Shown piece by piece: positions 27,514-61,912 of a stretch of 64,000 nt of DNA. The notes below the pieces were generated by a model, which was not told the origin of the DNA, searched no databases, and worked only from the letters and a program-made list of their open reading frames with translations. The translations under genes and the position numbers were made by a program. Within the stretch, counting starts at the first letter, position 1. Every line of letters begins with the position of its first letter. The stretch is from Trichobilharzia regenti. Its lineage: Eukaryota; Platyhelminthes; Trematoda; Strigeidida; Schistosomatidae. The stretch covers positions 21,071,379 to 21,135,378 of the forward strand of contig OX235263.1 of assembly GCA_944472135.2 (NCBI GenBank), given 5' to 3'.

Positions 27514-27519
27514 TTTATT
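27514..27519 (-). other. Polyadenylation signal, gene A
   Basis: AATAAA on the minus strand about 230 bp beyond the stop codon, at the same place in A, B, C, D and F. Confidence 0.65.
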
Positions 27520-27751
27520 GAATGAATACAGTTAAAACGCCTAAATGTACAAGAAAATTAAAGAAAAAATTCAAAAGAGTTTATCGATAACAATGTAATC
27601 CATCGTGCAGATCAATGAGAATGGTATTGAGTATGTCCTCCAGATAGCCGTGTGTGGATATAGACAGAGCGGTGGAACAGGGAGACAGATAGACGAGAGA
27701 GATAGATAGATAGTTCGATGGATAGATAGATAGATAGTTGGACAGACGGAT

Positions 27752-28514
27752 CTATTTGTCTTTGCAATTCCCATCAACACAACTCTGGCTGCAACACTCA
27801 GCGTCACTCTGACACTGTGATTTCGGTGGAAGACACTCACTCTCGCCCCTGACACACGCACCTTCTCTCTCATTCAACATTTTGCATTCGTGTGGAGGAC
27901 AGCAGTTTCGCGATCCACTCATATCACAGAATTTACCCACTGTCCCACACTCGCCATCCACCTCGGTCGCCTTCACACTACCTGAAATGCAATTTCACAC
28001 AGACAAAATTAATTCCTCATCTCATCTCACCTCACCTCACATACACTCACATACTCACGCAATAATCACTGTCATCTCAGTCACCAGGACAACAACAATC
28101 ATCAATCAACCAACATCAACCAACCTCATCAATACTATCGACACATCCAATTTTCCAGTATACACATATTCACACATATACACATTGCACAGTGTAATGC
28201 ACATGTATCACACATTTGTTCAGTTCGCCTCATGTAGGATAGTAATCAGTCCACCGAAATATAATTCATTAACACCATACCTACATTCATACATGCAAAC
28301 ATACATACATGCACAACTTCACAAAATATGCCTACTTGTGCACATGAAATACCAAACACAAATCAGGAGAAATTGCAGACATCAACTCACAAGTGACAAT
28401 TCAGCGATTCTCACTCACTCACCCACTGACTCACTGACTGACTCACTCACCGTGTGTGCTGCAGACGACGATGACAAGGACAGTGAACAAGCTGAAGACC
28501 AGATAGTGTTGCAT
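27752..28514 (-). CDS. Knottin gene A: secreted double six-cysteine peptide
   Basis: Two exons, joined by inference: 28514-28451 (64 nt) and 27981-27752, with a 469-bp phase-1 GT-AG intron. The product is 97 residues. Residues 1-21 are a signal peptide with hydrophobic core YLVFSLFTVLVIVV. Residues 33-64 form module 1 (C-x6-C-x7-CC-x4-C-x9-C) and residues 71-94 module 2 (C-x6-C-x5-CC-x3-C-x4-C). Both have the cysteine order of an inhibitor cystine knot, so a secreted, disulphide-rich peptide is expected. Knottins elsewhere act as protease inhibitors, channel ligands or receptor ligands, and the sequence does not say which applies. A TATA box lies 61 bp upstream and AATAAA downstream. Precursor identical to B, C and D. 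The ATG was chosen because it alone gives a signal peptide in frame with exon 2. Confidence 0.85.
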
Positions 28515-28574
28515 CTCTCCTCCAACCGAAACAGCTATTCTTCGTGTTCTCTGGTTGAACAAGTCATTCACCCA

Positions 28575-28582
28575 CTTATATA
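28575..28582 (-). promoter_or_regulatory. TATA box, gene A
   Basis: TATATAAG on the minus strand, 61 bp before the ATG. Present at the same distance in B, C and D. Confidence 0.7.
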
Positions 28583-30977
28583 CCCATCACTCATCTACCA
28601 GAGTGTTCACGTATCAATCACTATATTTTGGATGCTTTGATTCACATGAACACGCTAATCTCGTCCATACTCATGTGACGATCATTGACACTGTCTTGTC
28701 GATGTCACTGTTTGTCAGACACTCGCTAATTTCTTACTCAACACACCACACCACACCACATCACGCCAAACTCCATCCACCACACCATCAATCATACTTC
28801 GTCTCGTGTGATTTCGTGTCCGAATTTCGTGCTCGGATTAACTGTCATCGTCTTAACTGCGCTCTTTGCATTATCCAGGAGGAAGCATTTGCACGTATGA
28901 CACGCTCACGTTATGGACTGACATTTACAGTCTTGATGGATTTACATAAAACTAATCACGTTGTATTAAGGTGGAACGTTCGCAAAGAAATAGCTTAATA
29001 TTATTATCAAAACATCTTCATTCGTCCTCGACAAATAATGTTACCTCATTGAAACATTCATACTGAGACACAAGAGACATTAAGATGAACAGGTTCGTCG
29101 CCATGGTTTATTGTACTGGACAAGGCGTTGAATTTGACAATACGTCAAATGTTTATTACACTGGCTCATGTCTTTACTCTGATATCTCCTGGTCTTCACC
29201 CACAGTGTCGTTTTCATGAAAATATTTCGTCTACACTTAACGCATTTAGGTGTGTTTCAAATCCTGGTTGATTTGAATATTTCCATAATATTACGATGAG
29301 GGGACGAATGATAAGCGCCATTTACTTAGTGTTTCACGGTATCTTACTGATTTCTTGTGTAAGAGGTTTCTTAGTAATTGTGTGTCAAATAAGATGTGGC
29401 GGAATCTTCGTGATTAGTTGTACAACCATGAAGTTTTCGAAACGCCTTCTAATTCAACGTGATTAGACGGAAGCAGATAGTTGTGTATAGACAGAATGCT
29501 TGGAGTTGAATAACATGGTATTCGATAACATCTTCTTCGAGTTCAGGTATGTGTATACACAGTAGTATGAACAACCTGATTGATCGCCGACCCATTCGAC
29601 CTCCCTTCTGCTTCTGAAGCATTTCACAGTGTAATAACACGCTTCTTAGATCACCGAGGAAAGATTCGGCTGGAGAAGTAATAAAGAGGAATAGCCAGAA
29701 TACATGAATCAATGAATGAATGTAAATGTAGACACTGAGTGATACCAGATTATGTCCACCTCTCGAAGTGTGATTTCAGATGAGGTGACGATGTAGAAAT
29801 TAGCACACTGCGGGAAGACCGAGAAGGATCGGCAGAAATAAACAATCGAATCTATTTATCATTTGACGCAGTTTCAACTTCAATACCTTCTGTAATGCGG
29901 GTATCACGGAATAGAACTGGTTCATGTATATCGAGCTTTGGTCTGAAAGAGAAATTTCGAAAATAGCTTAAGATCATTTGACAAGGATCACTGACAAATT
30001 TTGATTGTCAGATGTTGAATTTGGAACGATCTGAGTGAGATGTGATCAGCATTTGAAAAATGGGCTTACTGCTATCAGTGAGAGAATTCTATGTACCACT
30101 CGATCCTTCCGACGAGGCATGTTGAGGTGAGAAGAAGAGAGGACGTGAAATTCTTATAAGCCTGCCTATTTCGGACAAGAAATATCCAGTGGAATTTTGA
30201 TATTGATGTCATGCTGTATTTCTTGAGTAAATACGTCCCAGTGTGTATCTTATAACATGCTCCTGAATTTGTAGGTATTTTTCAGAATTTCACTTATTAC
30301 GTGTTTCCTTCTCGATGTGAGAGTAGAGTAGGTTGTTCGGTGCAGATTTCCATATATCTGTTTTCCGACTATTCGTATGATAAAATGGTGAGAATTTAGA
30401 AGTGGGGTTCTTTGCTGATCTGGACATATCCCGAAGTCATTTGTGAACAGCGAATCAAGAATGTTGTCTAGCTGAGCTGAGTTGAAACGTTGGTGTTATT
30501 CCCATCAATCAATCAATCATGTAAGGAAACCGCAGTCAGTGGGACTGAAACCTCCAATCGCTAGTGGTGAATCTTTTCCAAGGCAGGTGGCAGCAAAATG
30601 AGTGAATTCACCAGAAAATCACAATCGTTAGAACAGAGTAAAATCAGGTACGGTATAATTGTTCGTAGTGCAGGATGTGATTGTTCCCAGAGAGATATTT
30701 TGTCCCATATTTCACAGCGATGCAATTGATCATTTTACCTGAGGAGATAAAACTCACAGTTTTGGAAGAAGTCCACTGAGAACTGATGAAAGTGGCGATG
30801 CCAATATCGCGTGGGTAATCTGGAGCCATTGAGCCAGACTAAATTCTAACTGTAATTATTCCCGAATTGACAGCTTGATAAGGTAACCGTTAGTCCACTC
30901 GGAAGTTACACTCCGTATTCCACAGTCCTTCTGCAACACTGAAGCGAGGATTTCCGACGAGACCCATGATTCTGTCT

Positions 30978-31220
30978 TCAGAGCTTCCAGAAGCACAAAT
31001 CGCACTTTGTGTTACTGTTAACCTGACTGAATGTCGGTTGGACAGAGTCCAAATTGTTGTAAGCACTATAAGCAGTTGGAGAGACAGAGTGACTACTGAA
31101 TCCTGGTTCATTGAATCTACACCGAACATATGCAATAAAAGCGAATAGCAAAGATATGGAGGATATTATTACCAGTCGAATCAGAGGGTAATAAATAATC
31201 TTAGAATGTACTAAATCCAC
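30978..31220 (-). CDS. Hypothetical 80-residue membrane-anchored ORF, spacer copy 1
   Basis: The frame starts MDLVHSKIIYYPLIRLVIIS and has one strongly hydrophobic segment at about residues 8-30, then a polar tail ending in CDLCFWKL. The same frame is open in 43237-43479 (three substitutions) and, with an altered tail, in 54183-54401. Another frame across the same DNA (43319-43567) is equally open, so conservation may only reflect recent duplication. No splice or promoter evidence; a real gene is doubtful. Confidence 0.22.
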   Translation of the reverse strand: MDLVHSKIIYYPLIRLVIISSISLLFAFIAYVRCRFNEPGFSSHSVSPTAYSAYNNLDSVQPTFSQVNSNTKCDLCFWKL

Positions 31221-31353
31221 ATTGTAACGAGTTATTTATTTTACTACAAGAAAATGTATTGCCCATGTTATTGACGAACAACACTCGTCGTATGTGTGTT
31301 TCTGTGTTTTCAGGACACTGAACCTGGCACTGACTGCAATGACAATGCAACAG

Positions 31354-31402
31354 TCAGTGTCTCTCGTCGAAATCACACAGTCAGAGTGACGCTGATTGAA
31401 GT
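31354..31402 (+). pseudogene. Fossil of knottin exon 2 (module 2)
   Basis: In the knottin frame this reads QCLSSKSHSQSDAD followed by a stop, against ECLPPKSQCQSDAEC in intact copies; two cysteines are lost. An acceptor-like TGTGTTTTCAG lies about 40 bp upstream at 31305-31315. The same fossil recurs at 43055-43103 (minus) and 54534-54582 (plus). It shows the spacers descend from earlier gene units. Confidence 0.7.
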
Positions 31403-32699
31403 ATTAGGAATTCATGGACATTCGTCGTTTTCTCCGTGTTCACATTTTCAATGGTGATGACTGTTTCGCCGTTGTTTGTGAGACTCCGGTTTATTTTGTG
31501 ATCATCAGAACAGCAATCAGTTAGGAAGGAATGCGTGGTGACTTCATCAACATAAGAAGCATTGTTCCGAATGTTTGTGGTATAGGTTCGATAGGTTGAT
31601 GTTGAAACGTAGATAACACGTGACCTACTTCACTCCTTCAACGGACATCTCATCCACTGTCTTATATTCTCTCTCTAATTTCTGAATGCTTTCACTCAGT
31701 TTCCTAATCTCTCCTCATGAATGTTATACTTCACCGAAACCTCTGAATATAGCTCACAACAGTGAATGAGAATAAACTGCAAACAGCATGTTATTATGAA
31801 TCCTTATATGTGTAGCAGCATGACCAATACGGAATTTCGATCACCGGAACATTTAAAAGCTCCACCATACGTTCAAAGTTGACATTTAAAATTCGGTGGG
31901 TTTCATAATGTTTCTGGTAGCTTATAATTGATTGTATTATCCAAGGGATGGTAAATTGGTGTGTTGGATGTAAGTGCCTTATAAGATTCTATGAAGATGT
32001 TTTCTGATACGAATCAAATGACACTGTACTGGTTATCAAAATATTGTGGTCACAACAGTATACCCGGTTTGTCTGAGTGTTCCTGGAATCGCGATTATTT
32101 CATCGGATTACGAGAATAGAATTCGCCTTATATCATCGCCAACTACTGGCCAACATACAATCCGAGAAAAATAAGTTATGCAGAGGAATCTGTTCATGTT
32201 ATTGTCTCTTGTGATTCAGTATGAATGTTTCAATGAGGTAACATTATTTGTCGAGGACGAATGAAGATGTTTTGATAATAATATTAAGCTATTTCTTTGC
32301 GAACGTTCCACCTTAATACAACGTGATTAGTTTTATGTAAATCCATCAAGACTGTAAATGTCAGTCCATAACGTGAGCGTGTCATACGTGCAAATGCTTC
32401 CTCCTGGATAATGCAAAGAGCGCAGTTAAGACGATGACAGTTAATCCGAGCACGAAATTCGGACACGAAATCACACGAGACGAAGTATGATTGATGGTGT
32501 GGTGGATGGAGTTTGGCGTGATGTGGTGTGGTGTGGTGTGTTGAGTAAGAAATTAGCGAGTGTCTGACAAACAGTGACATCGACAAGACAGTGTCAATGA
32601 TCGTCACATGAGTATGGACGAGATTAGCGTGTTCATGTGAATCAAAGCATCCAAAATATAGTGATTGATACGTGAACACTCTGGTAGATGAGTGATGGG

Positions 32700-32707
32700 T
32701 ATATAAG
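32700..32707 (+). promoter_or_regulatory. TATA box, gene B
   Basis: TATATAAG, 61 bp before the ATG. Confidence 0.7.
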
Positions 32708-32767
32708 TGGGTGAATGACTTGTTCAACCAGAAAACACGAAGAATAGCTGTTTCGGTTGGAGGAGAG

Positions 32768-33530
32768 ATGCAACACTATCTGGTCTTCAGCTTGTTCACT
32801 GTCCTTGTCATCGTCGTCTGCAGCACACACGGTGAGTGAGTCAGTCAGTGAGTCAGTGGGTGAGTGAGTGAGAATCGCTGAATTGTCACTTGTGAGTTCA
32901 TGTCTGCAATTTCTCCTGATTTGTGTTTGGTATTTCATGTGCACAAGTAGGCATATTTTGTGAAGTTGTGCATGTATGTATGTTTGCATGTATGAATGTA
33001 GGTATGGTGTTAATGAATTATATTTCAGTGGACTGATTACTATCCTACATGAGGCGAACTGAACAAATGTGTGATACATGTGCATTACACTGTGCAATGT
33101 GTATATGTGTGAATATGTGTATACTGGAAAATTGGATGTGTCGATAGTATTGATGAGGTTGGTTGATGTTGGTTGATTGATGATTGTTGTTGTCCTGGTG
33201 ACTGAGATGACAGTGATTATTGCGTGAGTATGTGAGTGTATGTGAGGTGAGGTGAGATGAGATGAGGAATTAATTTTGTCTGTGTGAAATTGCATTTCAG
33301 GTAGTGTGAAGGCGACCGAGGTGGATGGCGAGTGTGGGACAGTGGGTAAATTCTGTGATATGAGTGGATCGCGAAACTGCTGTCCTCCACACGAATGCAA
33401 AATGTTGAATGAGAGAGAAGGTGCGTGTGTCAGGGGCGAGAGTGAGTGTCTTCCACCGAAATCACAGTGTCAGAGTGACGCTGAGTGTTGCAGCCAGAGT
33501 TGTGTTGATGGGAATTGCAAAGACAAATAG
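32768..33530 (+). CDS. Knottin gene B: secreted double six-cysteine peptide
   Basis: Exons 32768-32831 and 33301-33530 with a 469-bp phase-1 intron; same precursor as A (97 residues, 12 cysteines: 33, 40, 48, 49, 54, 64 and 71, 78, 84, 85, 89, 94). It is the divergent partner of A, with ATGs 4.25 kb apart, and converges with C. The intron opens with many GTGAG units directly after the donor and closes with GAGGT/GAGAT units before GCATTTCAG. The 3' untranslated region carries (CTAT)n. Intron length and the upstream CTGCGCTCTTTGC variant are shared only with A. Confidence 0.85.
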
Positions 33531-33537
33531 ATCCGTC

Positions 33538-33602
33538 TGTCCAACTATCTATCTATCTATCCATCGAACTATCTATCTATCTCTCTCGTCTATCTGTCTC
33601 CC
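33538..33602 (+). repeat. (CTAT)n tract in knottin 3' UTR
   Basis: Tetranucleotide CTAT/CCAT units just after the stop codon of B. The reverse-strand GATA equivalents occur after A, C and F. Unit number varies between copies. Confidence 0.85.
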
Positions 33603-33762
33603 TGTTCCACCGCTCTGTCTATATCCACACACGGCTATCTGGAGGAAATACTCAATACCATTCTCATTGATCTGCACGATGGATTACATTGTTATCGATA
33701 AACTCTTTTGAATTTTTTCTTTAATTTTCTTGTACATTTAGGCATTTTAACTGTATTCATTC

Positions 33763-33768
33763 AATAAA
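33763..33768 (+). other. Polyadenylation signal, gene B
   Basis: AATAAA 233 bp after the stop codon. Confidence 0.65.
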
Positions 33769-34037
33769 TATTTTCAGCATACTTGTCTTCATGCTATTTA
33801 AAGTAACTAATTTTGTGAATGTGGGAATACGCAGTATGAGTAGACTTTCCTATTGACCGTTGTATTTGCTGTCAATGGAGCATGTTCTGGGTGGAATATT
33901 AGGAGTCATTTGTCAGCTAGCTATTGTTGATGTCATTCTGTGAGCAAATGTTTCCACCTCACCCTGAACGCATTTACACTGGTGATGACTGTCTCTCTGT
34001 TGTTTCGGAGGCTCCGGTTCATTTTGTGGTCGTCAAA

Positions 34038-34682
34038 ATGCTTCCCAATGGAGGAATTGAATTATGGCTGACTTCATCCATATGCATATCACACTACTTT
34101 GAATGGATTCGCCATCCGTTCTACTGGCTGATGTTGATGTGTAGTTTACACTTCGACTTTCAGTTCGTTGAGTCGTCTTCGAATCAGAGGACAATCAGTT
34201 TATTTTAGATTAACAAGAGTAACCGTCCTGCGCTTTGAGGGAAGAAAAGTCAACCTAAACGCTTTGATTTAATACAGAAGACTCCTGAATACTCAAGTTT
34301 TCCATTGGGTTCCATGGTCACTTTTTTTCGCTAGATCAATGTGCTGTTGGCTGAAATGCCTCTCAAGCGGTGACATATTCCAGACGTTCCACAGTCCACT
34401 TTCCCATGGATTTCTGAATAATTTCGCGAAATTTCGTAACTTCTTCATGTGAACGTGTATACCCACCACACCCACACACACCCACACACACACACTCTCT
34501 CTCTGTCTCTCTCTCTGGAAATAGGTCGAAGTAGTCAATGAGATTCAAATGTAGGCAGAATTGTTTGATGAAATTGCTTTGAGTGTCGACATGACTAGAT
34601 GTGGAATTCGGTCACCGAAATATTTCAGTCTTCGTGTGTTTTTGGGAAATTGATGTTTTAGAAGGAGTGATTTCTTGTTTTG
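34038..34682 (+). repeat. B/C convergent inverted repeat, left part
   Basis: Continues the 3' flank of B. Reverse complement of 38043-38690, including a (CA)n/(GA)n-rich tract at 34466-34520. Homology ends sharply near GATTTCTTG at 34675. Confidence 0.88.
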
Positions 34683-38619: not shown

Positions 38620-38957
38620 CCATTCAAAGTAGTGTGATATGCATATGGATGAAGTCAGCCATAATTCAATTCCTCCATTGGGAAGCATTTGACGACCACA
38701 AAATGAACCGGAGCCTCCGAAACAACAGAGAGACAGTCATCACCAGTGTAAATGCGTTCAGGGTGAGGTGGAAACATTTGCTCACAGAATGACATCAACA
38801 ATAGCTAGCTGACAAATGACTCCTAATATTCCACCCAGAACATGCTCCATTGCACAGCAAATACAACGGTCAATAGGAAAGTCTACTCATACTGCGTATT
38901 CCCACATTCACAAAATTAGTTACTTTAAATAGCATGAAGACAAGTATGCTGAAAATA

Positions 38958-38963
38958 TTTATT
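38958..38963 (-). other. Polyadenylation signal, gene C
   Basis: AATAAA on the minus strand about 225 bp after the stop. Confidence 0.65.
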
Positions 38964-39187
38964 GAATGAATACAGTTAAAACGCCCAAATGTACAGGAAA
39001 ATTAAAGAAAAATTTCAAAAGAGTTTATCGATAACAATGTAATCCATCGAGCAGATCAATGAGAATGGTATTGAGTATGTCCTCCAGATAGCCGTGTGTG
39101 GATGTAGACAGAGCGGTGGAACAGGGAGACAGATAGACGACATAGTTGGAGAGATAGATAGGTAGATAGATAGATGGACAGACGGAT

Positions 39188-39970
39188 CTATTTGTCTTTG
39201 CAATTCCCATCAACACAACTCTGGCTGCAACACTCAGCGTCACTCTGACACTGTGATTTCGGTGGAAGACACTCACTCTCGCCCCTGACACACGCACCTT
39301 CTCTCTCATTCAACATTTTGCATTCGTGTGGAGGACAGCAGTTTCGCGATCCACTCATATCACAGAATTTACCCACTGTCCCACACTCGCCATCCACCTC
39401 GGTCGCCTTCACACTACCTGAAATGCAATTTCACACAGACAAAATTAATTCCTCATCTCATCTCATCTCATCCTATCTCAACTCACCTCACCTCACATAC
39501 ACTCACATACTCACGCAATAATCACTGTCATCTCCTTCATCAGGACAACAACAATCATCAATCAACCAACATCAACCAACCTCATCAATACTATCGACAC
39601 ATCCAATTTTCCAGTGTACACATATTCACACATATACACATTGCACAGTGTAATGCACATGTATCACACATTCGTTCAGTTCGCCTCATGTAGGATAGTA
39701 ATCAGTCCACCGAAACATAATTCATTAACACCATACCTACATTCATACATGCAAACATACATACATGCACAACTTCACAAAATATGCCTACTTGTGCACA
39801 TGAAATACCAAACACAAATCAGGAGAAATTGCAGACATCAACTCACAAGTGACAATTCAGCGATTCTCACTCACTCACCCACTGACTCACTGACTGACTC
39901 ACTCACCGTGTGTGCTGCAGACGACGATGACAAGGACAGTGAACAAGCTGAAGACCAGATAGTGTTGCAT
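39188..39970 (-). CDS. Knottin gene C: secreted double six-cysteine peptide
   Basis: Exons 39970-39907 and 39417-39188 with a 489-bp phase-1 intron, 20 bp longer than in A and B because of extra ATGAG-type units near the acceptor. The precursor is residue-for-residue the same as A, B and D. It converges with B (stop codons 5.7 kb apart) and diverges from D. The (GATA)n tract after the stop is shorter and differently arranged than in A. Confidence 0.85.
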
Positions 39971-40030
39971 CTCTCCTCCAACCGAAACAGCTATTCTTCG
40001 TGTTCTCTGGTTGAACAAGTCATTCACCCA

Positions 40031-40038
40031 CTTATATA
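40031..40038 (-). promoter_or_regulatory. TATA box, gene C
   Basis: TATATAAG on the minus strand, 61 bp before the ATG. Confidence 0.7.
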
Positions 40039-42026
40039 CCCATCACTCATCTACCAGAGTGTTCACGTATCAATCACTATATTTTGGATGCTTTGATTCA
40101 CATGAACGCGCTAATCTCGTCCATACTCATGTGACGATCATTGACACTGTCTTGTCGATGTCACTGTTTGTCAGACACTCGCTAATTTCTTACTCAACAC
40201 ACCACACCACACCACATCACGCCAAACTCCATCCACCACACCATCAATCATACTTCGTCTCGTGTGATTTCGTGTCCGAATTTCGTGCTCGGATTAACTG
40301 TCATCGTCTTAACTTTGGTTTTTGCATTATCCAGGAGGAAGCATTTGCACGTATGACACGCTCACGTTATGGACTGACATTTACAGTCTTGATGGATTTA
40401 CATAAAACTAATCACGTTGTATTAAGGTGGAACGTTCGCAAAGAAATAGCTTAATATTATTATCAAAACATCTTCATTCGTCCTCGACAAATAATGTTAC
40501 CTCATTGAAACATTCATACTGAGACACAAGAGACATTAAGATGAACAGGTTCGTCGCCATGGTTTATTGTACTGGACAAGGCGTTGAATTTGACAATACG
40601 TCAAATGTTTATTACACTGGCTCATGTCTTTACTCTGATCTCTGCTGGTCTTCACCCACAGTGTCGTTTTCATGAAAATATTTCGTCTACCCTTAACGTG
40701 ATTGAGTCAAGGAAGTTTGATATCACCCATTCTCTATGTTTACACGATAGCGATTCTTCTATTCTCACCATTATTTTTCAACACTTCCCCTAAAACTTTT
40801 CAACAGGCAAACAAAGAGAGCGCATTTACATTTCGATGAGCATCGGCCACGACAGTGATTCGTGATTTTAGAATAGACCAAAATAACATTAGACAATCAT
40901 CATCATTATTCAGTCAATTACAATTAGTAGGTGTGACAAATTGTCAGCGGTCATATTTCCTTGAGAGTGAAGTCTGATGCATGCACATGACAGAAGTCAT
41001 TGTGAGGCGATCCAACGGACCACATATCGTGTATCCCGATGGTGTTTGTCCTCAACAGATTTGCACATCCGGCGTTTGATTGCCATTTGGAATTCGGATA
41101 GGAATTTCCCTTTAGTTTTCAGAACCACATGACCAGTAATCTCAGTGAGAGGCGAGTCGACAGCTGGGACGACACCTTGAATTATTAGTGACCACGTGTA
41201 TTTCGCATTAGCGACGTGCAATTTTTATTTCTGGAGAATAGACATTACCGAGCATTATGGGTCTGTTGCAAACAAATTTTTAACAAGCGCTGGCCTGATA
41301 TGAAATTATGTTGTATTTTGCCTTAAGCGAATTACTAAGTGAATTCCTATTCTCGTTTTCCTGTAATGGGAACCAGACTGGTACTTTTGTCTGTTGATTA
41401 GCCACCTGACCCCTCAGTGGAAAACAGGGTGTTGGTGGAGGTAACTGTTGTACTCTGTTCACCATCAAATTTAACAAGATATCTCCAAAACTAACAACAT
41501 GCCTCTACTTCTCATTCACACAATCTCATCCATGTCACACTCGGATATAGCTGCAGCTGGTCGTCTGTCATTCGGGTCGTATCTGAGAGCACATTTTCTG
41601 GCGTTATTTGGAGATATGCTTATTGTGTTCCTGGTAAATTACAAATTTACTCGGAAGATTTCTTCACCTATGTGTTTCTGATCTGTTCGGATGTGATCAG
41701 TGTGATTTCTTGATTATCTATTATTGCTGGTCGTCTCATTTTGTTAATCATGTCAGCTAGTGGGTGTGTTGATGACAGTAAGCAGAATATACTCTCCCAA
41801 ACAAATTTATATCTCTTGAAAACACTGGGTCTCTGAGAGAGATCTATCGAGCCAATTACTGAACAAAATTCGTAAAATAATAAATCGCGATCACTATGCC
41901 ATTTTCCTAAACTATTTATATTGGCGACGCGGATTCCTGCTGTTCGTTTATTCGAGACGATGATATCCAGGTAGTTGAATATTGTGAATTTCGCATATTC
42001 CCCCAGTCATTGGTCTGGAATCCATC

Positions 42027-42305
42027 TTGTTTGTCATTATCTTCGTCTGTATACACATACTAGTATACACTATACTAGCCTTGTTCCAAAGAAATGTGAA
42101 ATGCAGAGAAGTTCCCTGTATCTATACAGTTTTACGACTGAAACACTTAACTATTGAAACAGAAGCAATGAACAGGCTCATCGTTTCTAAACATTGGTGT
42201 CTTCGTTTTATCCCATCTCAAACTGAGTGCAGTGAGGACATTTGTAGTGAGGCTGTGCGGAGAGTATCTCAAAATCGGCGAAATTTAGCTGGTACGGTTT
42301 CGTAG
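42027..42305 (+). CDS. Hypothetical 92-residue ORF with hydrophobic N-terminus
   Basis: Begins MFVIIFVCIHILVYTILALF, which could be a signal peptide or anchor, followed by a cysteine-bearing polar region (KCREVPCIY, TECSEDICSEAV). The duplicate at 55358-55636 (minus) encodes the same residues. The DNA of the two copies is nearly identical, so this does not show selection. A longer frame runs antisense over its 3' end. Function unknown; may be chance. Confidence 0.2.
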   Translation: MFVIIFVCIHILVYTILALFQRNVKCREVPCIYTVLRLKHLTIETEAMNRLIVSKHWCLRFIPSQTECSEDICSEAVRRVSQNRRNLAGTVS

Positions 42306-43054
42306 CTGTCTAACTTGAAATGACTGATTGACGTGATATGCATTCGAGGACATCGTCTCGCTGCAGCAGTGATACCAGAATGTGTATTGGATTCCCTGTC
42401 TTGCACTCGGAAATCGAGAATAGTGAAAACAAAAAATTGTGGCAATATCCTGTGAAAATACAAAGGCTTTCGGAAATTCATTGACCTGAATCCTACATTG
42501 GAATGATCCTTATTTTTATTCATGCCAAGAAATCGATCTGAATCAAGAGCTGAATCGGTTTGGAAATTGACGGCTGATATCATTATTTGAGAGTGGTGTA
42601 GAATGGTGTAGAAATAATGTTGTATATGTTGTGAAACTGAGTGCATCATAAGTATGATGACGGTAGGTAAGCTCTCCAATTGTTCATGTTTGCAATCATA
42701 TCAAAGTTGGATTGGATGTTGGTTGGCCAGTAGTTGACCAGCACATAAGGCGAATTCAAGTCTCATAATCCGATAAAACAATCGCGACTCCAGGAACATC
42801 CAGACAAACCGAGTCCTCTGATTCGAAGACAAGTCAACGAATTTAATGTTGAAATGTGAACTACACTTCAACATCAACCTGTCAAACCTGTACCACAAAC
42901 ATAATGTTGATGAATTCACCATCCATCCCTCTTTTACTGATTGGTGTTCTGATAATTACAAAAGAAACCGGAGTCTCACAAACAACGGCGAAACAGTCAT
43001 CACCATTGAACACGTGACTACAGAGAAAACAACGAATGTCCATGAATTCCTAAT

Positions 43055-43103
43055 ACTTCAATCAGCGTCACTCTGACTGTGTGATTTCGACGAGAGACAC
43101 TGA
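43055..43103 (-). pseudogene. Fossil of knottin exon 2 (module 2), C/D spacer
   Basis: Inverted copy of the relic at 31354-31402, with the same lost cysteines and stop. Confidence 0.7.
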
Positions 43104-43236
43104 CTGTTGCATTGTCATTGCAGTCAGTGCCAGGTTCAGTGTCCTGAAAACACAGAAACACACATACGACGAGTGTTGTTCGTCAATAACATGGGCAATA
43201 CATTTTCTTGTAGTAAAATAAATAACTCGTTACAAT

Positions 43237-43479
43237 GTGGATTTAGTACATTCTAAGATTATTTATTACCCTCTGATTCGACTGGTAATAATATCCTCCA
43301 TATCTTTGCTATTCGCTTTTGTTGCATATGTTCGGTGTAGATTCAATGAACCAGGATTCAGTAGTCACTCTGTCTCTCCAACTGCTTATAGAGATTACAA
43401 CAATTTGGACTCTGTCCAACCGACATTCAGTCAGGTTAACAGTAACACAAAGTGCGATTTGTGCTTCTGGAAGCTCTGA
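43237..43479 (+). CDS. Hypothetical 80-residue membrane-anchored ORF, spacer copy 2
   Basis: Partner of 30978-31220 with substitutions I to V in the hydrophobic segment and SA to RD further on. An overlapping frame in the same DNA is equally open. Doubtful gene. Confidence 0.22.
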   Translation: MDLVHSKIIYYPLIRLVIISSISLLFAFVAYVRCRFNEPGFSSHSVSPTAYRDYNNLDSVQPTFSQVNSNTKCDLCFWKL

Positions 43480-45727
43480 AGACAGAATCATGGGTCTCGT
43501 CGGAAATCCTCGCTTCAGTGTTGCAGAAGGACTGTGGAATACGGAGTGTAACTTCCGAGTTGACTAACGGTTACCTTATCAAGCTGTCAATTCGGGAATA
43601 ATTACAGTTAGAATTTAGTCTGGCTCAATGGCTCCAGATTACCTACGCGATATTGGCTTCGCCACTTTCATCAGTTCTCAGTGGACTTCTTCCAAAACTG
43701 TGAGTTTTATCTCCTCAGGTAAAATGATCAATTTCGTCCCTGTGGAATGTCGATTGAAACACCTCTCTGGGAACAATCACATCCTGCACTACGAACAATT
43801 TTACCGTACCTGATTTTACTCTGTTCTAACGATTGTGATTTTCTGGTGAATTCACTCATTTTGCTGCCACCTGCCTTGGAAAAGATTCACCACTAGCGAT
43901 TGGAGGTTTCAGTCCCACTGACTGCGGTTTCCTTACATGATTGATTGATTGATGGGAATAACACCAACGTTTCAACTCAGCTCAGCTAGACAACATTCTT
44001 GATTCGCTGTTCACAAATGACTTCGGGATATGTCCAGATCAGCGAAGAACCCCACTTCTAAATTCTCACCATTTTATCATACGAATAGTCGGAAAACAGA
44101 TATATGGAAATCTGCACCGAACAACCTGCTCCAATCTCACATTGTGGAGGAAACGTGAATTAGGGGTTATTCTGAGGACAATACCCACAAACTCAGGAGC
44201 ATGTTATAAGATACACACTGGAACGTATTTACTCAAGAAATACAGCATGACATCAATATCAAAATTCCACTGGATATTTCTTGTCTGAAATAGGCAGGCT
44301 TATAAGAATTTCACGTCCTCTCTTCTTCTCACCTCAACATGCCTCGTCGGAAGGATCGAGTGGTACATAGAATTCTCTCACTGATAGCAGTAAGCCCATT
44401 TTTCAAATGCTGATCACATCTCACTCAGATCGTTCCAAATTCAACATCTGACAATCAAAATTTGTCAGTGATCCTTGTCAAATGATCTTAAGCTATTTTC
44501 GAAATTTCTCTTTCAGACCAAAGCTCGATATACATGAACTAGTTCTTTACCGTGATACCCGCATTACAGAAGGTATTGAAGTTGAAACTGCGTCAAATGA
44601 TAAATAGATTCGATTGTTTATTTCTGCCGATCCTTCTCGGTCTTCCCGCAGTGTGCTAATTTCTACATCGTCACCTCATCTGAAATCACACTTCGAGAGG
44701 TGGACATAATCTGGTATCACTCAGTGTCTACATTTACGATTCATTGATTTCCCTTTAGTTTTTCGAACCACATGACCAATAATCTCAGTGCGAGGCGATG
44801 AAACACATACCTGAACTCGAGGAAGACATTATAGAATACCATCTTGTTCAATTCCAACCTCTCTGCCTATACACAACTATCTGCTTCCATCTAATCAGGT
44901 TGGATAAGAACGCATTTTAAAAACTTGATGATTGCACAAATAAACAAGAAGATTCCGCCACATCTTAATTGACACACAATTACTAAGAAACCCCTTACCG
45001 TGAAACATTAAGTAAATGACGCTGATCATTCGTCCCCCATCGTAATATTATGGAAATATTCAAATCAACCAAGATTTGAAACACACCTAGATGAGACACC
45101 ATGAGGAGTGAGACTAGGGAGAAGATTAGAAACACTGGTGATGAAGAAAGACATTTATCAAAAGTAAGTGGATTCAATTCACATGAGAACCAATTACATG
45201 AAGACATGGAGACGAAGCTGTTCATCTTAATGTCTCTTGTGTCTCAGTATGAATGTTTTAATGAGGTAACATTATTTGTCGAGGACGAATGAAGATGTTT
45301 TGATAATAATATTAAGCTATTTCTTTGCGAACGTTCCACCTTAATACAACGTGATTAGTTTTATGTAAATCCATCAAGACTGTAAATGTCAGTCCATAAC
45401 GTGAGCGTGTCATACGTGCAAATGCTTCCTCCTGGATAATGCAAAAACCAAAGTTAAGACGATGACAGTTAATCCGAGCACGAAATTCGGACACGAAATC
45501 ACACGAGACGAAGTATGATTGATGGTGTGGTGGATGGAGTTTGGCGTGAGGTGGTGTGGTGTGGTGTGTCGAGTAAGAGATTAGCGAGTGTCTGACAAAC
45601 AGTGACATCGACAAGACAGTGTCAATGATCGTCACATGAGTATGGACGAGATTAGCGCGTTCATGTGAATCAAAGCATCCAAAATATAGTGATTGATACG
45701 TGAACACTCTGGTAGATGAGTGATGGG

Positions 45728-45735
45728 TATATAAG
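45728..45735 (+). promoter_or_regulatory. TATA box, gene D
   Basis: TATATAAG, 61 bp before the ATG. Confidence 0.7.
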
Positions 45736-45795
45736 TGGGTGAATGACTTGTTCAACCAGAGAACACGAAGAATAGCTGTTTCGGTTGGAGGAGAG

Positions 45796-46578
45796 ATGCA
45801 ACACTATCTGGTCTTCAGCTTGTTCACTGTCCTTGTCATCGTCGTCTGCAGCACACACGGTGAGTGAGTCAGTCAGTGAGTCAGTGGGTGAGTGAGTGAG
45901 AATCGCTGAATTGTCACTTGTGAGTTGATGTCTGCAATTTCTCCTGATTTGTGTTTGGTATTTCATGTGCACAAGTAGGCATATTTTGTGAAGTTGTGCA
46001 TGTATGTATGTTTGCATGTATGAATGTAGGTATGGTGTTAATGAATTATGTTTCGGTGGACTGATTACTATCCTACATGAGGCGAACTGAACGAATGTGT
46101 GATACATGTGCATTACACTGTGCTATGTGTATATGTGTGAATATGTGTACACTGGAAAATTGGATGTGTCGATAGTATTGATGAGGTTGGTTGATGTTGG
46201 TTGATTGATGATTGTTGTTGTCCTGATGAAGGAGATGACAGTGATTATTGCGTGAGTATGTGAGTGTATGTGAGGTGAGGTGAGTTGAGATAGGATGAGA
46301 TGAGATGAGATGAGGAATTAATTTTGTCTGTGTGAAATTGCATTTCAGGTAGTGTGAAGGCGACCGAGGTGGATGGCGAGTGTGGGACAGTGGGTAAATT
46401 CTGTGATATGAGTGGATCGCGAAACTGCTGTCCTCCACACGAATGCAAAATGTTGAATGAGAGAGAAGGTGCGTGTGTCAGGGGCGAGAGTGAGTGTCTT
46501 CCACCGAAATCACAGTGTCAGAGTGACGCTGAGTGTTGCAGCCAGAGTTGTGTTGATGGGAATTGCAAAGACAAATAG
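45796..46578 (+). CDS. Knottin gene D: secreted double six-cysteine peptide
   Basis: Exons 45796-45859 and 46349-46578 with a 489-bp phase-1 intron like that of C. The precursor equals A-C, with a 21-residue signal peptide and two six-cysteine modules. It is the divergent partner of C (ATGs 5.8 kb apart) and converges with E. Downstream flank homology to B stops near 47146. Confidence 0.85.
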
Positions 46579-46802
46579 ATCCGTCTGTCCATCTATCTAT
46601 CTACCTATCTATCTCTCCAACTATGTCGTCTATCTGTCTCCCTGTTCCACCGCTCTGTCTACATCCACACACGGCTGTCTGGAGGACATACTCAATACCA
46701 TTCTCATTGATCTGCTCGATGGATTACATTGTTATCGATAAACTCTTTTGAAATTTTTCTTTAATTTTCCTGTACATTTGGGCGTTTTAACTGTATTCAT
46801 TC

Positions 46803-46808
46803 AATAAA
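46803..46808 (+). other. Polyadenylation signal, gene D
   Basis: AATAAA 225 bp after the stop codon. Confidence 0.65.
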
Positions 46809-47146
46809 TAATCTCAGCATACTTGTCTTCATGCTATTTAAAGTAACTAATTTTGTGAATGTGGGAATACGCAGTATGAGTAGACTTTCCTATTGACCGT
46901 TGTATTTGCTGTGCAATGGAGCATGTTCTGGTTGGAATATTAGGAGTCATTTGTCAGCTAGCTATTGTTGATGTCATTCTGTGAGCAAATGTTTCCACCT
47001 CACCCTGAACGCATTTACACTGGTGATGACTGTCTCTCTGTTGTTTCGGAGGCTCCGGTTCATTTTGTGGTCGTCAAAATGCTTCCCAATGGAGGAATTG
47101 AATTATGGCTGACTTCATCCATATGCATATCACACTACTTTGAATG

Positions 47147-47369
47147 CATTAGCCAAGTTGACACTATACTCATTATGAAAATGCTGGTCTCACACATCTT
47201 CCTCCGTGTGCTTAGGTGTTCTCGAATCGGTGAATATTATGCCGGATATGGATACATTGAATAGACGAGAAGGTGATACACGTCATGGATTAATCTGCTG
47301 GTCAAACACAAATCAACAATGAATGATATAACTCTAAACCGTGGTAGTCGGGAAATGTACAAACCGTAA
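47147..47369 (+). repeat. Shared block beginning AGTTGACACTATACTC
   Basis: The same block follows three different left contexts at about 34784, 47153 and 61912. The join point is the same in all three, marking a recurrent rearrangement boundary. Confidence 0.75.
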
Positions 47370-51100: not shown

Positions 51101-51101
51101 C

Positions 51102-51787
51102 TCAAATCAAGAAATCAATTCTTTTAAAACAACTCGCGCCCCTGACACACGCGCCTTCTCTCTCATTCAACATTTTGCATTCGTGTGGAGGACAGCAGTT
51201 TCGCGATCCACTCATATCACAGAATTTACCCACTGTCCCACACTCGCCATCCACGTCGGTCGCCTTCACACTACCTGAAATGCAATTTCACACAGACAAA
51301 ATTAATTCCTCATCTCAACCCATCTAATCTCGAATATCCTTACATAACTACACAATAATCACTGTCATCTCAATCACCAGGACAACAACAATCATCAATC
51401 AACCAACATCAACCAACCTCATCAATACTATCGACACATCAAATTTTCCAGTGTACACATATTCACACATATACACATAACACAGTGTAATGCACATGTA
51501 TCACACATTCGTTCATTTCGCCTCATGTAGGATAGCAATCAGTCCACTGCACGATCATTCATTAACACCATAACTACATTCATACATGCAAACATACATA
51601 CATGCACAACTTCACCAAATATGCCTACTTGTGCACATGAAATACCAAACACAAATCAGGAGAAATTGCAGACATGAACACACAAGTGACAATTCAGCGA
51701 TTCTCGTTCACTCAATTACTCACCGAGTGTGCTGCAGGCGACGATGACAAGGACAGTGAACAAGCTGAAGACCAGATAGTGTTGCAT
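51102..51787 (-). CDS. Knottin gene E: shortened single-module copy
   Basis: Exons 51787-51724 and 51274-51102 with a 449-bp phase-1 GT-AG intron. The predicted product has 78 residues. The signal peptide carries V17A and H21L. Module 1 keeps all six cysteines (33, 40, 48, 49, 54, 64), with E28D. Array homology stops near 51134 and module 2 is replaced by a short new tail (ASCFKRIDFLI) that brings one extra cysteine before a TGA. The Ala at residue 68 is shared with F, so E derives from an F-like gene. The usual 3' untranslated region is lost; a minus-strand AATAAA at 50905-50910 is a possible substitute. It could be a working one-knottin variant or a decaying copy. Confidence 0.6.
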
Positions 51788-51890
51788 CTCGCTTCCAACC
51801 GAAACAGATATTCTTCGTGTTCTCTGGTTGAACAAGTCACTCGCTCACTCACTTACTCACTCCCCAAGCACTCACCAACTCTCTGACTCA

Positions 51891-51898
51891 CTTATATA
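51891..51898 (-). promoter_or_regulatory. TATA box, gene E
   Basis: TATATAAG on the minus strand, about 104 bp before the ATG. The spacing is longer than in A-D because of extra CACT-rich sequence. Confidence 0.6.
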
Positions 51899-57745: not shown

Positions 57746-58013
57746 TGTAGCTGTTTTCGATGGTACCATAAAAACAACGATATATAGGAAAGCCACACAT
57801 TGTGGAAGATTCCTTGATTATAACTTAGCTCATCCACTCTCGGTGAAACGAGGATTAATACAAGGTCTTCCAGAAAGGATACGTAGACTTGCAACAGCAC
57901 CAGAGGACCAGCGTAAAGAAATAAAAGTCCGATTCAAAATGCTACTCGAAAACAACTACCCTAAAGAATTTATAAAAGATAATATAAAAAAGAGAAAAAA
58001 AAGGGTATAACCG
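57746..58013 (+). pseudogene. Penelope-like element fragment at a lost gene site
   Basis: Translation gives FDGTIKTTIYRKATHCGRFL, DYNLAHPLSVKRGLIQGL, RIRRLATAPEDQRKEIKVRF and LLENNYPKEFIKDNIKKRKK. This is the PLE RT thumb block (TxYRKxTHxxRxLxYxxxHPLxxKRGL). It is open but truncated at both ends. It sits exactly where spacer homology ends and where a plus-strand knottin copy is expected. Confidence 0.85.
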
Positions 58014-58100
58014 GCTGTTTGACTCCAATGACCGTGATTCGAATCTGGGAGATTCCAGTTACAAGGTGAGCGACTTTCATTCAACATATTACCCGACAGT
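58014..58100 (-). repeat. Inverted piece of the 1-kb D/G segment
   Basis: Reverse complement of about 47985-48070: GTGATTCGAATCTGGGAG and TTACAAGGTGAGCGA are shared. It joins the PLE fragment to the 3' flank of F. Confidence 0.75.
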
Positions 58101-58811
58101 TCTTCATTCTGAATGCAGGACGGTTACTCTTGTTAATATAGAATAAGCCGATTGTCCTCTGATTCGAAGACGAGTCAACGAACTGAAAGTCGAAGTGTAA
58201 ACTACACATCAACATCAGCCAGTAGAACGGATGGCGAATCCATTCAAAGTAGTGTGATATGCATATGGATGAAGTCAGCCATATTTCAATTCCTCCATGG
58301 GGAAGCATTTGACGATCACAAAATGAACCGCAGCCTCCGAAACAACAGAGAGACAGTCATCACCAGTGTAAATGCGTCCAGGGTGAAGCGGAAACATTTG
58401 CTCACAGAATGACATCAACAATAGCTAGCTGACAAATAACTCGTATTATTCCACCCAGAACATGCTCCATTGCACAGCAAATACAACGGTCAATAGGAAA
58501 GTCTACTCATACTGCGTATTCCCACATTCACAAAATTAGATATTTTAAATAGCATGAAGACAAGTATGTTGAAAATATTTATTGAATGAATACAGTTAAA
58601 ACGCCTGAATGTACAGGAAAATTAAAGAAAAAATTCAAAAGCGATTGCCAGTAACAATGTAATCCATCGTGCAGATCAATGTGAATGGTATTGAGTATGT
58701 CCTCCAGATAGTCGTGTGTGGATATAGACAGAGCGGTGGAACAGGGAGACAGATAGACGAGAGAGATACATAGACAGTTGGATGGATAGATAGATAGATG
58801 GACAGACGGAT
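58101..58811 (-). repeat. Gene F 3' flank
   Basis: Homologous to the 3' flanks of C (38500-39187) and, inverted, of B and D. Includes (GATA)n at 58786-58799 and a minus-strand AATAAA at 58578-58583. Confidence 0.85.
58578..58583 (-). other. Polyadenylation signal, gene F
   Basis: AATAAA on the minus strand about 230 bp after the stop. Confidence 0.65.
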
Positions 58812-59568
58812 CTATTTGTATTTGCAATTCCCATCAACACAACTCTGGCTGCAACAGTCAGCGTCACTCTGACACTGTGATTTCGGTTGAAGACACCCAC
58901 GCGCGCCCCTGACACACGCACCTTCTCTCTCATTCAACATTTTGCATTCGTGTGGAGGACAGCAGTTTCGCGATCCACTCATATCACAGAATTTACCCAC
59001 TGTCCCACACTCGCCATCCACCTCGGTCGCCTTCACACTACCTGAAATGCAATTTCACACAGACAAAATTAATACCTCATCTCATCTCATCTCATCTCAC
59101 GTCACCTCACATACACTCACATACTCACGCAATAATCACTGTCATCTCAATCACCAGGACAACAACAATCATCAATCAACCAACATCAACCAACCTCATC
59201 AATACTATCGACACATCAAATTTTCCAGTGTACACATATTCACACATATACACATTGCACAGTGTAATGCACATGTATCACACATTCGTTCAGTTCGCCT
59301 CATGTAGGATAGTATTCACTTCACTGCAACATCCTCGTTAACACCATATAACAGATACCTGCATAACTTCACAAAATACGCCTACTTGTGCACATGAAAT
59401 ACCAAACACAAATCAGGAGAAATTGCAGACATGAACACACAAGTGACAATTCAGCGATTCTCACTCAACCATTCACCCACTGACTCACTGACTGACTCAC
59501 TCACCGTGTGTGCTGCAGGCGACGATGACAAGGACAGTGAACAAGCTGAAGACCAGATAGTGTTGCAT
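58812..59568 (-). CDS. Knottin gene F: diverged double six-cysteine peptide
   Basis: Exons 59568-59505 and 59041-58812 with a 463-bp phase-1 intron; 97 residues. All 12 cysteines are kept. Compared with A-D it has V17A in the signal peptide and E68A, S69R, E70G, P73Q, E83D and D96Y, so the mature changes all fall in the inter-module link, module 2 or the tail, while module 1 is unchanged. Net charge of module 2 becomes more positive. Its divergent partner is the broken copy G. A PLE piece (59757 onward) lies just upstream of the promoter, about 80 bp beyond the TATA box. Confidence 0.82.
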
Positions 59569-59672
59569 CTCGCTTCCAACCGAAACAGCTATTCTTCGTG
59601 TTTTCTGGTTGAACAAGTCACTCGCTCGCTCGCTATCTCACTCAATTACTCACTCACCATCTCACTCACCCA

Positions 59673-59680
59673 CTTATATA
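59673..59680 (-). promoter_or_regulatory. TATA box, gene F
   Basis: TATATAAG on the minus strand, about 105 bp before the ATG, as in E. Confidence 0.6.
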
Positions 59681-59756
59681 CCCATCACCCATCTACCAGA
59701 ATATTCACACACATCACTCACCAGATTGTGTGTGCATTGTTTCACATGAACACTAA

Positions 59757-60155
59757 ATAGGAACTAAATATGTGGGTCAAACGTCCAGATCACTCAAAAT
59801 AAGAGTGAATGAACATAAACGCCTAACCAAATGTCAACCAACAGGAACACAAGCCTACAAAAATCTTGAAAAAATTCATCGATAGCTGCACATGCATGGG
59901 ACAAAAACCACAATATCGATTGGAACAATGTGTGTATTCTGAAAACAAATATGAACAAATGGAAAGAAATACTCATCACAGAATCGATATTCATTAAAGT
60001 CACACCGGATACATGTAACAAGGGTGACTCGGTACAATTATCAACAACTTGGAATATAATTCTAAATACAAACACATGAATGAATGTGGAATATAATACT
60101 GAACACACACACAAAACATGAATGAGCAAAAATAATAATAATAATAATAATGGAC
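59757..60155 (+). pseudogene. Penelope-like element fragment, GIY-YIG (divergent family)
   Basis: First frame: GTKYVGQTSRSLKIRVNEHK, RLTKCQPTGTQAYKNLEKIH, then a stop at 59883-59885. A +1/-2 shift restores IAAHAWDKNHNIDWNNVCIL and WKEILITESIFIKVTPDTC to about 60079. It has the GIY-YIG core (KYVGQT with RVNEH) and the HNIDWxxVxIL block, as in 13406-13768. An (AAT)n tract at 60130-60150 may be its 3' tail. Confidence 0.85.
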
Positions 60156-60335
60156 TATACATTTGAGTACAAATCATAAATGTGTGAATACAACAATTCC
60201 AAAAGTGGTGTGAACACGGGCATTAATTTTGCTCGAAATATTACCAATAACAAAACTTATCATTCTGTGTAAACTATTGAAATATAAATATACTTTATTT
60301 GATGTAATCCACTATGCCTAAACGTTTTACTGATA
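60156..60335. other. Unassigned, between two insertions
   Basis: AT-rich with an (AAT)n run at its right end. No gene seen. Confidence 0.4.
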
Positions 60336-61560
60336 TTAATAATAATAATATAATAATAATGATTTACTTTATTCCAAAAACAGTACTTGTGATACAGAAT
60401 GGAATTTTCAGCATTAATCACAATATTGCATCTAATTTCCTCAAATTGTAAATAAAATTAATCACACAGAAAATTTTCCACATTTTCAATAGAGGTAGTG
60501 TCAAAAACATGCAGCATATAAAATGGAAATAGCAATAATAATGATAACAGCTAGGGTAATAATAATAATAATAATACAAGTAAAAATTGCCGTTGGCTTG
60601 TGTCACACAATATTGTCAATGTGGTATAGAAATCTGAACATGTTTTAAAATATTGAATATGACGTTCTCTTTACATGATATGGTGAGGGGAAAAACAAAG
60701 ATTACAGCCGTTATGCAGATAAGTTAGTGTTTGCAGTTATGAGAGTAAAACAAAGAACCAACGGGATCATAAATATATTAGAAATAATAAAAGTAAAACT
60801 TGAAGGTATATAAGGATGGATGGAGTAAATTGTTTGTTTACTAGACAAAAACAGGTTACATGGAGGATTTAATCATGAGCTGACATCAATACTTGAAAAA
60901 AAAGAGGTTAGTTAATTCTCGCCTGACACTATTTTCACCACATAAAATACGTTCCAATTATGGTATCATAGAATTTTTATACTTAGACGTGCGAGCATAC
61001 AGTTTTCTGAAGTTACTCCTTGTTCTACCTGAGGAGATGCCAGGTGAATGCTGAGGGTAAAGCGGATGCTCCAAGTCAGATAAAATCCCTTTAGCAAATT
61101 TATTGCACGAAGTCAAGTGCCTATCGACAACGACGTTAACTATGTGGTCCACTGGGACACCACTCACCGTGCTGACAGTCTTTAGTATTCTGCGAATTGT
61201 GACATAGTCTTTTTTAAGCAAACCAGGAAAGAATAAGGGTGAGCAATAAAGAAGAATAGGTATGATGCAAGAGTTGACAAACTGTAAGATGAGGGGTTGA
61301 GTTATACCCGAGTGTCTTAACTTCTTAATGTAAAATGTCAGGCGGAATATTTTACTGGAGATCGCTAAGACGTTGGAAGTCCAGGAGAGATCAGAAGAGA
61401 GAATGAGTCCAAGATACTTAATTTCTGATTTGATTCCTATAACAATGTCGTCAATTTTACAACTGTCATGAGAATCGATGACTTCTTTTAACTGTCGCTT
61501 ACATCTTAAGCTGAAATCAACAGTTTGACACTTAGAAGGATTCAGTTTAAGACCGTTAGA
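60336..61560 (-). pseudogene. SR1/CR1-like retrotransposon inserted in knottin exon 1
   Basis: The minus-strand frame (60958-61559) reads NGLKLNPSKCQTVDFSLRCK, EIKYLGLILSSDLSW, FRLTFYIKKLRHSG, NSCIIPILLYCSPLFFPGLL and a C-terminal RSNFRKLYARTSKYKNSMIP: the RT region after the active site and the C-terminus, open for about 200 codons. The untranslated 3' part contains (AAT)n tracts and a SINE-A 3'-end scrap near 60862. The 3' end is the GCTGAAAATTCCATTCTGTA block and (TTA)n at 60336-60416. 5'-truncated; well preserved, so relatively young. Confidence 0.9.
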
Positions 61561-61912
61561 CTCAGCTTGTTCACTGTCATTGTCATCGTCGCCTGCAGCA
61601 CACACGGTGAGTGAGTCAGTGAGTGAGTCAGTGAGTGAATGGTTGAGTGTGTGAGAATCGCTGAATTGTCACTTGTGTGTTCATGTCTGCAATTTCTCCT
61701 GATTTGTGTTTTGTAATTCACGTGTACGAAAAGGCATATTTTGTGAAGTTGTGCATGTAAGTATGTTTGTATGTCTGAATGTAGTTATGGCGTTAGTGAA
61801 TGATGGTGCAGTGGACTGACTACTATCCTACATGAGGCGAACTGAACAAATCTGTGATACATGTGCATTACACTGTGCAATGTAGATATGTGTGAATATG
61901 TGTATACTGGAA
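61561..61912 (+). pseudogene. Knottin gene G: broken copy
   Basis: Exon 1 begins at the codon for residue 7/8 and runs to 61606 (SLFTVIVIVACSTH), followed by the donor GGTGAGTGAG and about 305 bp of the usual intron. Start codon and promoter are cut off by the CR1 insertion at 61560. The intron stops at TATACTGGAAA and joins AGTTGACACTATACTC; exon 2 and the 3' flank are missing. It carries V17A like E and F. It was the divergent partner of F. Confidence 0.85.

Follow-up and report, generated by a model that had tools for sequence, protein, structure and literature searches.

Inverted amplification of genes for a predicted secreted double-knottin peptide in the bird schistosome Trichobilharzia regenti

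Seven pieces of a two-exon gene at the left end of an array

The window studied here is a stretch of 64,000 nucleotides from the 954-Mb assembly of Trichobilharzia regenti (contig C2, positions 21,071,379-21,135,378), in which a two-exon gene for a small cysteine-rich peptide is repeated. T. regenti is a bird schistosome that migrates through the nervous system of its host. A BLASTN scan with one copy as query returned seven pieces of the gene, each 353 to about 1,050 bases long, at 27562-28592 (-; c01), 32690-33720 (+; c02), 39006-40048 (-; c03), 45718-46760 (+; c04), 51132-51849 (-; c05), 58626-59623 (-; c06), and 61562-61914 (+; c07). Copies are numbered from left to right along the array, c01 to c24. 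The remaining six window pieces share 89.8-99.6% identity with reference copy c02 over 353 to 1,051 aligned bases, and a genome search with exon 2 found related places with E values down to 2.3e-48, which together exclude chance resemblance. The strand order (- + - + - - +) puts five of six neighbours in opposite orientation, confirming the alternating two-exon genes that an earlier note on this DNA had described.

Exon-by-exon translation revealed an ATG, a GT..AG intron, and a full exon 2 with twelve cysteines in five of the seven pieces (c01-c04 and c06). In the reference copy c02 (32768..33530, +), exon 1 (32768-32831) and exon 2 (33301-33530) are separated by a 469-nt GT..AG intron, and a TATA box lies 68 nt upstream of the ATG. 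The TATA box occupies the same position in the intact copies c01 (27752..28514, -; exon 1 28514-28451, exon 2 27981-27752), c03 (39188..39970, -; exon 1 39970-39907, exon 2 39417-39188), and c04 (45796..46578, +; exon 1 45796-45859, exon 2 46349-46578), the last being the mirror twin of c03 at 0.19% divergence. Copy c06 (58812..59568, -; exon 1 59568-59505, exon 2 59041-58812) retains the twelve cysteines with several residue changes, has no TATA box at the usual place, and finds its mirror twin in c08, beyond the window (0.20% apart). The TATA box is likewise missing from its usual place in c05 (51102..51787, -; exon 1 51787-51724, exon 2 51274-51102), which keeps start, splice sites, and stop, and whose exon 2 departs from the family sequence past module 1, leaving a single cysteine module. 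Fragment c07 (61562..61914, +) comprises part of exon 1 and of the intron, without ATG, acceptor, or exon 2. It overlaps the end of an open frame at 60958-61668 (-) that has no Pfam match and that we take to resemble a reverse transcriptase.

The earlier count of six copies with a start and a stop and one broken copy stands as worded, but only five of them encode both knottin modules; a total of six double-knottin genes in the window was therefore rejected. The spliced product of c02, with its junction precisely at the splice sites given above, equals the 97-residue T. regenti protein A0AA85K3J7, which is already public as "Uncharacterized protein" and was the sole protein returned by a single-sequence search.

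Extent and mirror symmetry of the array

Seven pieces do lie where a cluster of seven had been reported, but the cluster continues past the window. With 170 kb added on the right, the array comprises 24 pieces in 176 kb (C2:21,098,940-21,274,992), of which the window covers 36 kb, the left fifth. Nineteen pieces are intact, with ATG, donor, acceptor, and full exon 2, and all 19 have canonical splice sites; of the remaining five, c05 retains module 1 only, c07 and c22 lack exon 2, c12 lacks exon 1, and c24 has a disrupted exon 1. At 68 nt from the ATG, the upstream TATA box is present in 17 of the 21 ATG-bearing copies, and the four without it (c05, c06, c08, and c10) may be silent or otherwise regulated. 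A GAGTGAG-type sequence stands where their TATA box would be.

Opposite-strand neighbours account for 17 of the 23 neighbouring pairs in the array. Four mirror pairs are reciprocal nearest relatives with 0.2-0.4% divergence: c01/c02, c03/c04, c06/c08 (with fragment c07 between them), and c20/c21. The remaining copies are 0.8-7% from their nearest relative, and c12/c14 form a further reciprocal nearest pair that is non-adjacent. Within the window, c01/c02 make up a palindrome at 27410..33872 (arms 27410-29117 and 32165-33872) and c03/c04 a second one at 38688..47078 (arms 38688-40571 and 45195-47078); the arms are 99% complementary in both. This near-identity fits either arm-to-arm gene conversion or recent inverted duplication, and the breakpoints do not separate the two. 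We rejected the argument that a breakpoint shared between palindromes proves gene conversion, because the same-strand pair c02/c04 loses its upstream homology at a similar point, near 512 nt. Nor are near-identical mirror twins general, since in a related cluster at C3:101 Mb the mirror pair L024/L025 is 2.6% apart and L022/L023 is 21% apart.

The spacers hold further short matches: a 47-nt piece of exon 2 (module 2) recurs at 31352-31398, 43059-43105, and 54533-54579 with 83% identity, possibly a trace of older, decayed copies. An antisense open frame of 275 residues runs across c01 (27813-28640, +), without a Pfam match at E 0.01; it keeps this length across c02 but not across c03 and c04, where it is shorter. 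At the same threshold, none of five long frames, spacer or antisense, matched Pfam.

The product as a predicted secreted double knottin

Exon 1 encodes a hydrophobic leader, and exon 2 a mature peptide of about 75 residues with two tandem six-cysteine modules joined by a six-residue linker. The spacing is C-x6-C-x7-CC-x4-C-x9-C in module 1 and C-x6-C-x5-CC-x3-C-x4-C in module 2, so that both agree with the pattern read earlier (C-x6-C-x5-7-CC-x3-4-C-x4-9-C). Inhibitor cystine knot (ICK) spacing is present in both modules, and that of module 2 equals the omega-atracotoxin-Hv1a variant 1hvw. All twelve cysteines are kept in 13 of 14 aligned family sequences; the fourteenth (L055) is shortened by the stretch taken.

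A profile search of the PDB returned the double-ICK toxin phi-Xibalbin3-Xt3a as its top match (7rz3; E 4.1e-5). The tandem ICK architecture of such double-ICK channel toxins (Xt3a, DkTx) resembles the window product in cysteine spacing, the fold of the latter being predicted. Xt3a is a remipede crustacean venom toxin acting on ryanodine receptors, whose architecture its authors call convergent with that of spider toxins (PMC9950431); the T. regenti peptide, in contrast, is acidic. With weak models as query, the top Foldseek ranks were mostly ICK peptides, all at E > 0.001, and the VIA rows consisted of small disulphide-rich folds, again mostly ICK peptides. The sequence thus supports the earlier proposal of a secreted double knottin in its hydrophobic leader, doubled ICK spacing, and conserved cysteines. 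Secretion is a prediction from the leader, and the knotted topology, with weak models and no Foldseek match reaching E 0.001, is a putative one. Counted from the first module cysteine, net charge spans -3 to +10 among the 14 aligned family members, and for this reason the superfamily may serve several targets.

A UPF0506-like branch with relatives in flukes and tapeworms

The family, which the earlier note had not recognised, is UPF0506-like. UPF0506 (PF11703) ranked first in Pfam for two window exons (c02 and c06) and for the window product P0001, covering profile positions 1-58 of 59; the one-module c05 exon did not appear among its matches. On contig C3, paralogue L023, which shares 75% identity with P0001, scores 27.3 bits, above the gathering cut-off of 23.2 bits, which is a database threshold and not a biological trait. 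Among ten proteins scanned with Pfam, only P0001 fell under this cut-off, and the nine same-genome paralogues lay above it. Because the window copies stay under 23.2 bits while L023 passes, we regard the window subfamily as a UPF0506-like branch, homologous through L023, rather than as a Pfam-called member. An unknown family was rejected given this homology, the genome profile matches, and the double-module relatives in other flatworms. Spider Toxin_7 (PF05980; cut-off 27 bits) was not reached by the window exons (17.7, 17.7, and 19.4) or P0001 (17.1); paralogue L027 passes both Toxin_7 (28.0) and UPF0506 (25.6).

UPF0506 shares the twelve-cysteine double module and the leader peptide with the window copies, and both occur in parasitic flatworms, the window gene in T. 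regenti and the named relatives down to P0029 in flukes and tapeworms. Profile searches of protein collections found relatives in, among others, Schistosoma, Heterobilharzia, Fasciola, Paragonimus, Taenia, Echinococcus, Hymenolepis, and Schistocephalus. By spacing pattern, 25 of the 28 named relatives (P0001-P0006 and P0008-P0029) have the double module, the exceptions being P0006, P0028, and P0029; P0030-P0038 (E 0.0047 to 8.2) lack a pattern match and stand outside this count. The linker has six residues in P0001, three in P0002, and two in the other 23 of the 25 double-module relatives. Genomic place L053 differs by one residue from T. regenti protein P0004 over the compared stretch, and L052 agrees with T. 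regenti protein P0006 as far as the tenth cysteine, from which point the model of P0006 diverges. The T. szidati relative P0002 has four knottin modules, and its T. regenti match at C3:92.6 Mb (L051 and L059) consists of two double-module exons starting 1.2 kb apart. We do not claim that the window subfamily is absent from T. szidati, as T. regenti's own 75% group was likewise not returned as a protein.

Related exons across the genome

At least 126 UPF0506 profile matches at E 0.01 or better were found in the genome (150 of 257 candidates scored). Together with at least 70 places from the sequence search, less 26 common to both (overlap judged by eye), this gives at least 170 exon-2-like places. 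Twelve of these, counted by eye, carry stop codons; some are incomplete, and some sit on small, possibly haplotypic contigs. Many of them stand in inverted clusters, for instance at C6:26.46-27.00 Mb and C6:46.60-46.83 Mb, which mostly alternate (29 of 43 and 20 of 26 neighbours opposite, respectively), and at C7:29.89-29.93 Mb, which alternates throughout (6 of 6).

In rough fractions from clusters grouped by hand, neighbours were opposite in 98 of 134 cases for UPF0506 (13 clusters), 3 of 11 for cathepsins (4 clusters), and 13 of 24 for Kunitz genes (2 clusters). The UPF0506 value follows the collapse of three loci whose two exons are one gene (98 of 140 before) and covers clustered places; scattered ones such as C8, C2:3.47 Mb, C6:62.6 Mb, and C3:105.8 Mb were set aside, as were smaller groups of Kunitz genes (C372, C1:154.9 Mb, and others), most of them on a single strand. 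Genes of the CAP family, intended as a further control, gave three matches and no cluster. The Kunitz fraction weakens alternating strand as a peculiarity of UPF0506, because it indicates that inverted duplication also occurs outside this family. The two Kunitz-domain clusters (C2:48.0-48.9 Mb and C4:23.68-23.75 Mb) are part inverted, part direct.

Variation among copies

Across the 19 intact copies, nucleotide diversity rises from 0.0104 in exon 2 to 0.0439 in the intron and 0.0828 in the 3' flank, so that exon 2 lies about four times below the intron. The ratio of nonsynonymous to synonymous substitution rates (dN/dS) was 0.33 in a single comparison of c02 with L023, from the 75% group on C3, over 65 codons. 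The lower diversity and this ratio both point to coding constraint on exon 2. Constraint of a plain kind is nevertheless contradicted by the 13 variable exon-2 sites, all in residue-changing codons, and by silent sites that vary less than the intron: no fourfold site varies (0 of 25), versus 72 of 469 intron sites (Fisher one-sided P 0.017). Strong positive selection is not established by the count of 13 replacement against 0 silent sites, which gives P 0.055 if 20% of sites are taken as silent and 0.024 at 25%. Several exon-2 replacements fall in copies without a TATA box.

A candidate host-interface peptide and its alternatives

On balance we favour, at roughly even chances, a dose-amplified, putatively secreted double-ICK peptide of the host interface. 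The leader would direct the peptide into the secretory pathway, where its twelve cysteines would form two protease-resistant knots; released by a host-contacting stage where the worm meets its host, it could engage a target in the host as a two-headed ligand. Amplification in an inverted array would raise the dose, and some mirror neighbours would stay near-identical through recent inverted duplication or conversion between arms. Gene structure, the array, homology, the cysteine pattern, and the near-identity of four mirror pairs are observed here, whereas secretion, knot topology, release, target, and dose effect belong to the proposal.

Two published relatives make the host interface more plausible. 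In the tapeworm Schistocephalus solidus, a UPF0506-family knottin occurs in the secretome of four of five worms and in none of the proteomes (PMC8400842). This protein, A0A183TDP7, has the motif C-x6-C-x7-CC-x4-C-x9-C-x2-C-x6-C-x5-CC-x3-C-x4-C, differing from the product of the fluke T. regenti only in linker spacing (x2 versus x6), and no amplification is mentioned for it in the available text (PMC8400842). The second is a UPF0506 protein listed as enriched in Schistosoma japonicum cercariae, with a fold change of 15.1 (PMC5223471). Two other papers mention the domain in connection with S. japonicum chromatin (PMC10878521) and Opisthorchis viverrini expression (PMC11396942). For T. regenti itself, orphans make up 10 (cercariae) and 8 (schistosomula) of the 20 most transcribed genes in a transcriptome report (PMC4749378).

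Several observations weigh against a host-directed double knottin. The UPF0506 scores of the window copies in Pfam fall below the gathering cut-off (P0001 20.2, c02 exon 21.1, and c06 exon 21.6 bits). The predicted models are weak, with predicted local distance difference test (pLDDT) values of 68.2 and 69.4 and predicted template-modelling (pTM) scores of 0.41 and 0.38. The mature peptide is acidic, with a net charge of -4, which speaks against its being a copy of known basic channel-binding knottins. All 13 variable exon-2 sites among the 21 copies with exon 2 lie in residue-changing codons, a pattern not expected if the worm simply required a larger amount of one product. Finally, SmKK7 of Schistosoma mansoni, a schistosome protein comparable in being named for its resemblance to an animal (scorpion) venom protein, warns against assuming a host target: it was found among the proteins that larvae release as they transform, but in the worm itself it labels the nerve net and nerve endings, which is where its authors favour a role.

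SmKK7 also speaks for the main alternative, an endogenous neuronal, matrix, or signalling knottin acting inside the worm, to which we assign a real but clearly minor share of the probability. Resemblance to signalling proteins agrees with it: the Foldseek rows include a prokineticin-type toxin (1imt) and insulin-like growth factor (IGF)-binding folds, and Dickkopf_N (PF04706) appears below its 25-bit cut-off (16.0-18.3 for three window exons and 17.2 for P0001). Nineteen intact copies and at least 170 related exon places would, in our judgement, be unusual for an internal signal, and the secretome-only S. solidus relative and the release of SmKK7 also count against it. Alternatively, instead of binding a host receptor or channel, the secreted knottin might have a protective role as a protease inhibitor or antimicrobial in the gut, tegument, or egg. 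Knottin scaffolds widely serve such roles, and tachystatin and MCh-1 are among the better Foldseek and VIA rows; since all these matches are weak and net negative charge suits an antimicrobial poorly, we consider this explanation improbable.

A largely decaying or selfish amplicon, whose copies spread with the surrounding repeats and are mostly unexpressed, seems unlikelier still. It would account for the five broken pieces of 24, the four of 21 ATG-bearing copies without a TATA box, the several frames with retroelement-like motifs in the left part of the window, and the partly inverted Kunitz genes of the same genome, but not for complete exons and splice sites in 19 of 24 pieces or for the reduced variation of exon 2. 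We judge it very unlikely that the array is an assembly artefact, with haplotypes of a heterozygous worm pool placed next to each other as spurious copies. Identities of 95-99.8% among many copies do fall within a possible haplotype range, and haplotypic duplication is possible for relatives on the small unplaced contigs C97, C409, and C533; the array copies, however, switch strand at varied spacing between partly unlike spacers on one 110.7-Mb contig, whereas false duplication is expected to repeat blocks in a single orientation.

As an extension of the host-interface reading, T. regenti may have built a venom-like arsenal of double knots by inverted amplification, with the window subfamily binding a vertebrate neural channel or receptor bivalently and so easing the worm's way through spinal cord and brain; we regard this as a long shot. 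What is new is the genomic architecture found in this neurotropic schistosome, large in scale and inverted in layout; the kind of protein was already known. Searches of one literature library found no paper on Trichobilharzia with knottin, no schistosome-peptide paper by title for inhibitor cystine knots with schistosomes, and nothing pertinent by title among the papers listed for palindromic or inverted gene clusters in schistosomes. UPF0506 has been named without a function, and at least 170 exon places in a nerve-migrating worm make it possible to test what these peptides bind. With its near-identical mirror pairs, the array is also an example of inverted amplification that can be set beside the palindromes of sex chromosomes. 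If host-directed, the peptides could be candidate antigens for diagnosing bird schistosomes and swimmer's itch.

Other elements in the window

A type I hammerhead ribozyme lies at 1105-1149 (-), scoring 54.5 bits against a cut-off of 34 bits; we assume that it is probably part of a retroelement, as in schistosomes. Long open frames at 6355-7224 (+), 14763-15473 (+), and 22717-23229 (-) look like pieces of Penelope-type GIY-YIG endonucleases, judging by their motif.

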